NCBI GenBank assembly: GCA_951813395.1
Contig: OX638356.1
Span: 3,670,501-3,734,500 of the forward strand
Direction of reading: 5' to 3'
DNA: 64,000 bases
Source: Longimicrobiales bacterium
GTDB taxonomy: Bacteria; Gemmatimonadota; Gemmatimonadetes; Longimicrobiales; Gaopeijiaceae
Under the pieces are notes generated by a model that was given only the letters and a program-made list of their open reading frames with translations, did no database searches and was not told the origin of the DNA. A program made the position numbers and the translations under genes. This document shows positions 1 to 2,794 of the stretch, one piece after another; the stretch's first letter is position 1; every line of letters starts with the position of its first letter.

Positions 1-1699
1 TGTCAGCGTTGACGATGCGAGCGGCACCCGCGTCCTCGAGCGCGGCCCACAAGGCCGTGGCCGCCTGCTCGGCCTGCCCCGGCGGCACGACTCCCACCGG
101 CACCACCCCCGCCCCCACCGCCGCCCTCACGTCGTCCGGCGTGTCGCCCAGCATCCACGCGGTCCTCGCGTCCAGCTGCTCCAGCGCGGTCCGCACGGGT
201 GCCGGATCGGGCTTGAGCGGCGCGTCCTCGCGGCAGACCACCGCGCTGAAACACCCCCGCACCCCCTGCTCCCGCAGGAAGCGCCGGGCGTCGGCGCGCG
301 GCCTCCCGGTCACGATCCCCAGCCTGAACGACCGTGCCAGCCGATCGAGCAGCTCGCGCGACGGGATCAGCGTCTCGCGGCGGCGCAGCCCCGGCGCCTC
401 GTCGGTGCCCTGGTAGATCTCCTCGAAGCGCGCCGTCACCTCCTCCAGCGAGGCCTCGATCCCCGCGCTCTCAAGCACCCCGTGCGTCACCGCCCAGTCG
501 TCGTTGGCGCTTCCTGCCGCCTTCACGGCGCCGATCAGCTCGTGTCCGGCCTCCACCCCGAACGACGCGCACGTCCGCACGATCGCCTCCCGGTACGACC
601 GCCGCACGTCGGCCAGCACGCCGTCCATGTCCAACAGCACCGCGTCGGGCCCGCGCCGCGAACCGCCCACCGCATCCTTCGCACCCTCCGCACTCACCCC
701 GCCAGCCCGCCCCGCGAGACACCTCAGCGCCCGCTCCACACGGCGGAACTCGCCGTCGTCCCGCGGCACCGTGATGCGCACGTACTCCGGCAGGTGCGGG
801 AAGTAGCGCACCAGGACGCCCTGCGCGGCCATGCCCCGCTGGATCCAGCGCGCGTCCGGAAACGACGAGAACAGGAAGTTGGTCTGCGACGGCTGCGGCG
901 CCCCTCCCACCTCCCGGATCACCCCGGCCAGGCGCTCCCGCCGCGCACGCACGTACTCGACGAACCCGCGCATCTCGTCCACCCCGTTCCTCAGCCGGTC
1001 CAGCGCGATCGCGATCGATGGCCCGGTCAGCGCGTACGGCCCCCCGAAGCCGCGCAGCACGTCGACCCGCTCCTTCGCGCCGACCGCGAAGCCCACGCGC
1101 AGGCCCGCCAGCCCCCACGACTTGGACATCGTGCGCACCATCACGGCGCGCGGGATCTCCAGGAGCGCCGCCGTGTGGTCCTCGTCCGCGAATTCCGCGT
1201 ACGCCGAATCCACCAGCAGCACCACCTCGGGAGGCAGCGCGTCCGCCAGCCGCAACAGCTCCCGTGTGGTAAACGCCCGTCCCGTCGGGTTGTCCGGCGT
1301 CAGCACCGCCACCACGCCCGTCCGCTCGTTCACCTCGGCCAGGATCTCGTCGTGGGGCAGCGTTCCCCATTCGTACTCGACGGGCACGAGCCGCCCCCTC
1401 GCCATGCGCGCACACGCCGGGATCATCTCGAAGGTGGGCGTGGGGAAGACCATCTCCCGGTCGGGACCCAGAAACGCCCGAAAGATCCGGTCGATCGCGT
1501 CGTCCCCCCCGGTCGTGGCCAGCACGTTGGCGGGGTCGGTGCCCAGGTACGCCGCGTACGCCTCCTCCACCGGCCGCGGATCCGCGTACTTGCGCAGAAT
1601 CCCGGGCCCGATCCGATCGAGCACGTCGAAGCACTCCCGCGGTGGCGGTTCGCCCTCGTTCATGCTGAGGTCGATCAAGTCCCTCGTGGCCGCGCTCAT
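1..1699 (-). CDS. hisC: HisC-HAD fusion: histidinol-phosphate aminotransferase plus HAD phosphatase (3' end off window)
   Basis: Two domains in one reading frame. Residues 1 to about 330 are a class I/II PLP aminotransferase of the HisC type: an N-terminal NEGEPP turn, a DNPTG motif, and the PLP lysine K193 in SKSWGLAGLR. From about residue 350 there is a HAD-IA phosphatase with LLDMDGV (D357/D359), a TGRP motif II, KPDP, and GDTPDD as motif IV. HisC makes L-histidinol phosphate and a HAD phosphatase could remove its phosphate to give histidinol, so the fusion may do two consecutive steps; the second activity is inferred. The ATG overlaps the hisG stop (ATGA), so translation is coupled. The C-terminal end lies beyond the left edge. 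Cytoplasmic. Confidence 0.88.
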   Translation of the reverse strand, partial: MSAATRDLIDLSMNEGEPPPRECFDVLDRIGPGILRKYADPRPVEEAYAAYLGTDPANVLATTGGDDAIDRIFRAFLGPDREMVFPTPTFEMIPACARMARGRLVPVEYEWGTLPHDEILAEVNERTGVVAVLTPDNPTGRAFTTRELLRLADALPPEVVLLVDSAYAEFADEDHTAALLEIPRAVMVRTMSKSWGLAGLRVGFAVGAKERVDVLRGFGGPYALTGPSIAIALDRLRNGVDEMRGFVEYVRARRERLAGVIREVGGAPQPSQTNFLFSSFPDARWIQRGMAAQGVLVRYFPHLPEYVRITVPRDDGEFRRVERALRCLAGRAGGVSAEGAKDAVGGSRRGPDAVLLDMDGVLADVRRSYREAIVRTCASFGVEAGHELIGAVKAAGSANDDWAVTHGVLESAGIEASLEEVTARFEEIYQGTDEAPGLRRRETLIPSRELLDRLARSFRLGIVTGRPRADARRFLREQGVRGCFSAVVCREDAPLKPDPAPVRTALEQLDARTAWMLGDTPDDVRAAVGAGVVPVGVVPPGQAEQAATALWAALEDAGAARIVNAD

Positions 1700-2571
1700 G
1701 GCACGATCTGCTGCGGTTCCGACACGACCAGATCGGTGCCGCCCCGCGCCTTCACCTCGAGCAGCAGCGCCGGCAGCGCCGTCCTGGGCACCGCCGCCCG
1801 CACCGCGTAGGCACTCTCGCCGTGCAGCCTCGACACGGTGGGCTCGCGCATGCAGGGCAGGATGGAGATGACGTGCTCGAATTCCGCCTCCGAGACGTTC
1901 AGCTCCAGCATCACCCGCCGCCGCGCCTCCAGAACCGACTTGAGGAGGAGAACGAGGTCGTCGATCCGGGCCCGGCTTGCCGGGTCGTCAAGGGCTGCCG
2001 GGTTGGCGTAGAGACGGGTCGAGGAGAGCATCAGCGTATCCGCGACGACGAGGCCGTTCCCGCTCAGCGTCGCTCCCGTCGCCGTGTTGTCGACGATGAG
2101 GTCGGCGTCCTCGGGCGGGAAGACCTCGGTAGCCCCGTAGGACCGCACCACGTCGGCCTCGAAGGGCTGCCCCCGGGCCCACTCCTTCACCACGCGCACG
2201 TACTCGGTCGCGACGACCAGGCGCCGGTCGGCCGGGAGCGCCCCGTCGCGAAGCAGCGAGGCGGGCGCCGCCGCGACGACCTTCACCGGGTCGAGCGCGG
2301 TGTCGAGCAGCTCGACCACGTCGGCGTCCAGCTCGGCCACCCAGTCCGCCCCGGCGAAGCCGATGTCGCGCGATCCCGCATCGAGCATCTTCACCACGTT
2401 CTGCGGCTTGAGCAGCTTGGCCTCGAAGCCCGGCCACGAGAGCACCGGCCGATAGTTGCGCGACCCCAGGTGGACGTCGATCCCCGCATCGGCAAGGAGC
2501 GCGAAGACCGCGCCCTGCATGTGCCCCTTGGGCAAGCCGATGTGGATGGCCGGCCGAACTGTTCCGTTCAT
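1696..2571 (-). CDS. hisG: ATP phosphoribosyltransferase
   Basis: First committed enzyme of histidine synthesis (ATP + PRPP to phosphoribosyl-ATP). The 291-residue length fits the long HisG form that carries its own C-terminal regulatory domain. Visible features are the N-terminal IGLPKG, the periplasmic-binding-protein-like core with DIGFAGADW, the PRPP-loop region DNTATGATLSGNGL (around residue 160-175), and a C-terminal ACT-like part ending near ARGGTDLVVSEP, where histidine feedback normally acts. An AGGAG lies about 11 nt before the ATG. It is preceded by a histidine-rich leader peptide and an attenuator, and its stop overlaps the hisC fusion start. Confidence 0.95.
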   Translation of the reverse strand: MNGTVRPAIHIGLPKGHMQGAVFALLADAGIDVHLGSRNYRPVLSWPGFEAKLLKPQNVVKMLDAGSRDIGFAGADWVAELDADVVELLDTALDPVKVVAAAPASLLRDGALPADRRLVVATEYVRVVKEWARGQPFEADVVRSYGATEVFPPEDADLIVDNTATGATLSGNGLVVADTLMLSSTRLYANPAALDDPASRARIDDLVLLLKSVLEARRRVMLELNVSEAEFEHVISILPCMREPTVSRLHGESAYAVRAAVPRTALPALLLEVKARGGTDLVVSEPQQIVP

Positions 2572-2621
2572 CCCGCTGTCATCTCCTCGCGAGCCCGCTC
2601 CCCGAGAACCAGCCGGCGCAC

Positions 2622-2656
2622 AAAAAAAGCGCCGACCCCCCCGAGGAAGCCGGCGT
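2622..2656 (-). terminator. Intrinsic terminator acting as his attenuator
   Basis: On the minus strand a GC-rich stem starting CGCCGGC (2655-2649) can pair through G-C and a few G-U pairs with GGTCGGCG, and is followed at once by seven T (2628-2622). It lies between the leader peptide stop and hisG, so it would end transcription before hisG unless an alternative fold forms. A hairpin over the last His codons (CCGC/GCGG arms) and an imperfect antiterminator pairing GCCGCG with the 5' arm of the terminator can be drawn by eye. The terminator is clear; the antiterminator is tentative. Confidence 0.85.
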
Positions 2657-2690
2657 TTTGGGTATCCCGTGCTTTCGTACGGCTACACCG

Positions 2691-2756
2691 TCACGCGGCC
2701 GCCTCTCGCGGGTGGCCGTGATGATGATGCGTTGCGTAGCGGGCACTGGTATTCAT
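2691..2756 (-). CDS. hisL: His operon leader peptide
   Basis: A 21-codon open frame, ATG to TGA, with four consecutive His codons and a fifth one residue later (residues 10-13 and 15, HHHHGH). It sits 120 nt upstream of hisG and before an intrinsic terminator. This is the classic layout of ribosome-mediated attenuation: scarcity of His-tRNA stalls the ribosome in the His run and favours read-through. The ATG lies about 3 nt downstream of the predicted transcription start, so the leader is probably translated from a leaderless or nearly leaderless mRNA. No other homology is expected for such a short peptide. Confidence 0.88.
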   Translation of the reverse strand: MNTSARYATHHHHGHPREAAA

Positions 2757-2762
2757 AGGGCC

Positions 2763-2794
2763 CTAATAGTCAAAACACTGCGGGCGGATGTCAA
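2763..2794 (-). promoter_or_regulatory. Predicted sigma70 promoter of the his operon
   Basis: Perfect -35 TTGACA (2794-2789 on the minus strand), a 17-nt spacer, then GACTAT (2771-2766) as -10. An overlapping TATTAG (2768-2763) is an alternative -10 with a 20-nt spacer. Either choice places the start of transcription within a few bases of the hisL ATG at 2756. Confidence 0.65.

Follow-up and report, generated by a model that had tools for sequence, protein, structure and literature searches.

A predicted ribosome-mediated histidine attenuator upstream of hisG in a Longimicrobiales bacterium and the occurrence of similar leaders in Gemmatimonadota

The leader region upstream of hisG

The analyzed stretch of 64,000 nucleotides, called the window in the following, belongs to a genome assembled into one contig of 4.09 Mb. 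Near the beginning of the window lies hisG, the first gene of a full his operon in the order hisG - hisC/HAD phosphatase fusion - hisB - hisH - hisF - hisA/hisIE fusion - hisD, which extends past the window start. The first gene, hisG (1696..2571, 291 aa), and hisC were named by family models, and the remaining his genes were named from reading their translations. All features described for the window lie on the minus strand. A candidate Shine-Dalgarno motif of hisG, GAGGAG, was read in the sequence at 2583..2588.

The preliminary description of this region had reported a 21-codon frame with five His codons, a TTGACA promoter, and an 11-bp hairpin with seven T in front of hisG, and all three elements were found again. 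The leader peptide ORF, MNTSARYATHHHHGHPREAAA, runs from its ATG to a TGA at 2756..2691, and the putatively regulatory His codons are codons 10-13 and 15 (2729-2718 and 2714-2712). The his operon promoter has its -35 element, TTGACA, at 2794-2789, as read in the sequence, and TTGAC is conserved in the congeners. The -10 element, GACTAT (2766..2771), was assigned from its conservation and from the spacing, with a 17 bp spacer upstream and the ATG of the leader 9 nt further on. GACTAT alone is a weak match to a -10 element and was not among the matches of a consensus promoter scan, but sister species have GACAAT at this place, and the element is conserved. No Shine-Dalgarno motif was seen upstream of the leader ORF when the sequence was read.

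Four RNA segments with competing pairing partners could be delineated. Segment 1, CGGCCACC (2711..2718), is predicted to form with GGCGGCCG at 2703-2696 the 1:2 hairpin, which is located immediately 3' of the His run. By folding, segment 2, GAGGCGGCCGCGU (2693..2705), would be the 5' arm of an antiterminator, the loop of which contains an inner hairpin, GGUGU...AUACC (2661..2689). Segment 3, ACGCCGGCUUCCUC (2643..2656), can pair with segment 2 in the antiterminator or with segment 4 in the terminator. Segment 4, GGGGUCGGCG (2630..2639), was recognized by folding and by a terminator scan as the 3' arm of the terminator. The terminator stem-loop itself (2655-2630) has 11 pairs, 8 of them G-C, and a loop of 4, and is followed by the T7 tract of an intrinsic terminator (2622..2628). 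It was the sole terminator-like match in 6 kb when both strands were scanned, and apart from the leader ORF, neither strand of the 64 kb window has an ORF of 8-45 codons with four or more His within seven codons. Two features expected of an attenuator, a cognate operon directly downstream and a terminator between the leader ORF and hisG, are present.

The window contained no match to the Rfam family His_leader (RF00514) or to any other Rfam family at the gathering threshold, and neither His_leader nor a T-box was found up to E = 10 at 2500-2900. A sub-threshold similarity to BcKCsr2, a Burkholderia sRNA, extends along the whole Rfam model (window 2624-2756; 19 bits, gathering threshold 40). 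The BcKCsr2 model likewise has AUGAAU at its beginning and a terminator at its end, and it may represent an attenuator leader as well.

The predicted RNA switch and its conservation within the genus

As a check of the attenuation reading, the preliminary description had suggested folding the leader for alternative structures. When the ribosome was modelled as a single-stranded footprint, these structures were obtained: the helices 1:2, 2:3, and 3:4 are predicted to be mutually exclusive and are arranged in the correct order. In the nascent state, in which segment 4 is still untranscribed, the mean pair probability of the 2:3 antiterminator was 0.95 with the A site at H10, H11, H12, or H13, and it decreased to 0.52 with the A site at H15 and to 0.00 once the ribosome had reached the stop codon. 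Without a ribosome, the nascent leader had probabilities of 0.32 for 2:3 and 0.65 for 1:2. For the full leader, the terminator helix 3:4 reached 0.99 without a ribosome, together with 0.98 for 1:2, and 0.93 with a ribosome at the stop codon.

In the equilibrium fold of the complete transcript, the terminator was preferred at some stall positions (H11, H13), and therefore the choice between the two structures would have to fall while the RNA is being transcribed, as it does in the classic attenuators. Folding of the 190-nt region as a single piece did not yield a significant result (z = -1.36), and the fold with the stalled ribosome is the informative test.

The conservation of the leader was analyzed with 23 genomes of the genus, 18 of which contained a match to hisG. 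The upstream region was complete in 17 of these, and at the eighteenth locus (L013) the contig ends 239 nt upstream. The nearest relatives of the hisG gene, with 85-91% identity, were mostly MAGs labelled Gemmatimonadetes or Gemmatimonadota, and one congener was labelled Longimicrobiales, which places the genome among the gemmatimonadotes. Five congeners (G002, G010, G012, G014, G015; estimated to be 93-96% complete) had neither a HisG match nor the leader; possibly, they are histidine auxotrophs, or the assemblies have gaps at this place.

A comparison of the regions upstream of hisG had also been proposed in the preliminary description, and the TTGACA motif, the leader ORF with its His codons, and the terminator turned out to be present in all 17 congeners whose upstream region was complete. 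The -10 variants included GACAAT, GACTAT, GACGAT, and similar hexamers, and the leader ORF begins 8-9 nt after them. Seventeen genomes gave matches to a covariance model of the leader; 16 of them have one strong copy each, located directly upstream of hisG, and the seventeenth, G005, carries an extra copy of the leader (see below).

The predicted nascent antiterminator, GAGG-C-GGCCG-CGU paired with ACG-C-CGGCU-U-CCUC, was found with small variations in each of the 17 congeners. In the genus alignment, 98% of the cells of the 2:3 helix could pair, versus 35-65% after sliding of the partner. Covariation within the genus was limited to one compensated pair each in 2:3 and 1:2, which is not above the shuffled control; the leader is almost invariant within the genus, and thus such tests have no power. 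RNAalifold recovered the 2:3 helix from the genus alignment, mixed with a false pairing to segment 4, which results from misalignment of this segment by MAFFT in L014, L016, L017, and L018.

At the codon level, His codons 10-15 show mostly CAT/CAC exchanges and some losses, and L009 and L014 retain three of the five. Codon 13, which adjoins helix 1, reads CAC in each of the 17 congeners, and codons 2-9 vary freely. The loss of one or two His codons in some congeners could be taken to mean that promoter, His-rich ORF, and terminator are relics, which in the window species have become insensitive to histidine and cause constitutive partial termination. However, the window species has five His codons and an intact antiterminator and terminator, and the RNA segments hardly vary in the genus, so that we regard such a decay as very unlikely.

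In L015 and L017, the frame shifts past the His run and the stop codon moves, and yet the RNA is almost unchanged, which argues that the part after the His run is conserved as RNA. The same two loci bear on the view that the product of the ORF is a functional His-rich peptide and that its location upstream of hisG is incidental. Small His-rich peptides can bind metals, which could be such a function. However, the frame is not kept past the run at these loci, the terminator/antiterminator pair is retained, and across the phylum the peptide sequence outside the His run is poorly conserved. A functional peptide is therefore highly improbable.

Distribution in the phylum and the start of the leader ORF

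The phylum was surveyed with 120 regions upstream of hisG, which were retrieved from 150 genomes sampled evenly over the phylum and from members of the order and the genus. An ORF with a His run was found in 82 of the 120 regions, and in 77 of them when a terminator was also required. Dinucleotide shuffles yielded on average 0.1 His-run ORFs per set of 120 regions and 0.0 with a terminator. The reverse-strand control gave 1, and of the other amino acids Arg came first with 12 among the 120 regions. Counted with a terminator, the own genus reached 15/17 at the threshold, the other two having aligned leaders with three His. The numbers were 13/21 for the remaining own family, 6/6 for family f2, 35/39 for f5, 6/22 for f4, 0/2 for f3, and 0/4 for f9. 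Judged from these leader sequences, a predicted his attenuator is widespread in Gemmatimonadota.

These numbers also bear on the explanation that the hairpin simply ends a short transcript or sRNA from upstream and that a His-rich ORF precedes it by chance. The Burkholderia sRNA match, a single weak one below the threshold, would fit this. On the other side, the ORF has no second of its kind in 64 kb, the shuffles produced about 0.1 such ORFs where 82 were observed, and the His frame is conserved in the relatives. Hence, there is hardly any chance that the hairpin and the ORF are unrelated, and an attenuator remains the preferred interpretation.

Folds of the stalled state support the antiterminator outside the genus as well, as 78 of 79 leaders across the phylum were better than the mean of their shuffles, with a mean z of -2.4. 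In several families, a plain count of the bases paired to the terminator arm was not clearly above shuffles, and thus the predicted antiterminator is firm for the own genus and elsewhere is indicated by energy only. In f5 (L130-L189) and f2, many leaders contain GGC CCG ACG GGT CGG (GPTGRG) immediately behind the His run. As RNA, this stretch could fold into a small hairpin, GGCCC-GAC-GGGUC, and L184 has a compensated change (GGCCU-GAC-AGGUC). Perhaps this hairpin is the phylum-level counterpart of the 1:2 hairpin.

His-run ORFs also precede hisG outside the phylum. Among relatives of the HisG described here, they were found in Phycisphaerae, Sumerlaeota, a deltaproteobacterium, an acidimicrobiian, Planctomycetia, and Acidobacteria bacterium Mor1, and for some of them a terminator could be recognized. 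Loci of Phycisphaerae, Sumerlaeota, Mor1, the acidimicrobiian, and Planctomycetia with such ORFs are L048, L056, L063, L069, L072, L081, L083, L084, L087, L089, L093, L100, L101, L103, and L104; several have a TTGAC-type promoter near the ATG.

Two types of HisG, about 30% identical, occur in one family (L021-L030 versus L001-L020), and His leaders precede both. This suggests that hisG or the operon was replaced and the mode of control was kept or regained.

The position of the promoter is informative about the start of translation. Of 84 His leaders, 72 had TTGAC 34-40 nt upstream of an in-frame start, and 75 had it when the distance was extended to 30-45 nt. A Shine-Dalgarno-like core was present in only 2 of the 75 His leaders that were scored. 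With a normal promoter, this spacing leaves a 5'-UTR of a few nucleotides at most, and the leader mRNA is thus probably leaderless or nearly so, a conclusion drawn from promoter spacing.

Interpretation, related systems, and variants

The exclusive helices in the right order together with the conserved leader support the attenuation reading of the preliminary description, and we conclude, with a probability of about 95%, that the leader is a ribosome-mediated transcription attenuator of the his operon. The analysis shows the elements, their conservation, and the exclusive pairings with their predicted occupancy, and from these we infer where transcription starts, that initiation is leaderless, and that the operon responds to histidine.

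RNA polymerase would start just upstream of the leader ATG, and a ribosome would load on the probably leaderless ORF. When His-tRNA is scarce, the ribosome would stall with its A site at one of the codons 10-13 and cover segment 1, the 2:3 antiterminator would pair before segment 4 exists, and transcription would proceed into hisG. When His-tRNA is ample, the ribosome would reach the stop codon and cover segment 2, so that the intrinsic 3:4 terminator would form. If the leader is not translated, the 1:2 hairpin would form, and termination would be favored too.

The arrangement resembles hisL of E. coli and Salmonella (RF00514), with which it shares a short ORF that carries tandem His codons, the 1:2, 2:3, and 3:4 helices, and an intrinsic terminator preceding hisG of a complete his operon. 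The two leaders differ in that hisL has seven clustered His codons and the leader described here has five. Moreover, the latter is devoid of a Shine-Dalgarno motif, has its ATG about 9 nt past the -10 element, and is probably leaderless. Leaderless ORFs are known from other attenuators, namely trpL of Sinorhizobium meliloti and the Cys-codon leaders of mycobacteria. In these, the ORF begins at or beside the transcription start, whereas for the his leader this is deduced only from the spacing, and the amino acid and the lineage are different. The peptide of S. meliloti trpL has been the subject of a separate study (PMC7298713).

Attenuators with His leader peptides are described in gammaproteobacteria and have been predicted in some Firmicutes for hisS/hisZ (PMC2965389) and for the his operon and hisZ*YX (PMC9413887). 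Earlier evidence of leader peptide systems was confined to Proteobacteria and Actinobacteria (PMC2965389). The Firmicutes leaders likewise combine His codons, a terminator, and an antiterminator outside Proteobacteria, and the likeness is one of layout in another phylum, in which groups often control the same genes by T-boxes or HisR.

In a search of open-access full texts, which is no proof of absence, no report of his attenuation in Gemmatimonadota or of leader peptide attenuation in Gemmatimonadetes was found, in line with the earlier view that the lineage is poorly documented. The combination of Gemmatimonas and leader peptide led to microcin processing only. The mechanism itself is textbook knowledge, but its wide distribution in Gemmatimonadota is apparently unreported. 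A classic mechanism, documented mostly in Proteobacteria and in some cases in Firmicutes and Actinobacteria, would now reach the majority of the Gemmatimonadota families that were sampled. Judged by leader ORFs, it would also include Phycisphaerae, Sumerlaeota, an Acidobacteria bacterium, and others. A covariance model and many natural variants are now at hand.

One genus deviates in the codons of its leader. In genus g65 (L219-L232), which includes Candidatus Palauibacter, all 14 species with a hisG locus have a leader at the same place, with a mix of Tyr, Phe, and His codons instead of a His run. Thirteen of the leader peptides closely resemble MTNTHPFFGHYYYHRVRGGR, and one, MQHDTWYAGHLYHHRWSGGR, is divergent. 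The other four genera of the family with a hisG locus retain His runs. A terminator and a complementary putative antiterminator (GGCCGG...GAUCG / CGAUC...CCGGCC) can be seen in the g65 sequences. The codon mix may indicate sensing of Tyr and Phe, or it may reflect a mere demand for unstructured codons. It is conceivable, if rather doubtful, that leaderless attenuation is ancestral and widespread and was retuned in the Palauibacter genus to Tyr/Phe/His, so that the operon would answer to aromatic amino acids and histidine. In a genus with apparently changed sensed codons and a retained RNA switch, it would be possible to test directly how attenuators evolve their amino acid specificity. The idea that the HisC of the operon, as the sole aromatic aminotransferase, is behind the Tyr and Phe codons was not supported, as a count of paralogues revealed other HisC-like genes in genomes of the Palauibacter genus.

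A second variant was found in G005, the congener with the extra leader copy. A complete, diverged unit of promoter, leader, and terminator is located between hisC and hisB (L050:5560-5830; G005:C13:261456-261589). Its leader peptide is MSTRARIATHRHHGHPGEGAA, and it is followed by a six-codon remnant, ATGAACGGTACGGATGAGTGA, which resembles the start of hisG. The second leader and the hisG-like remnant indicate that the device was duplicated or imported within the operon.
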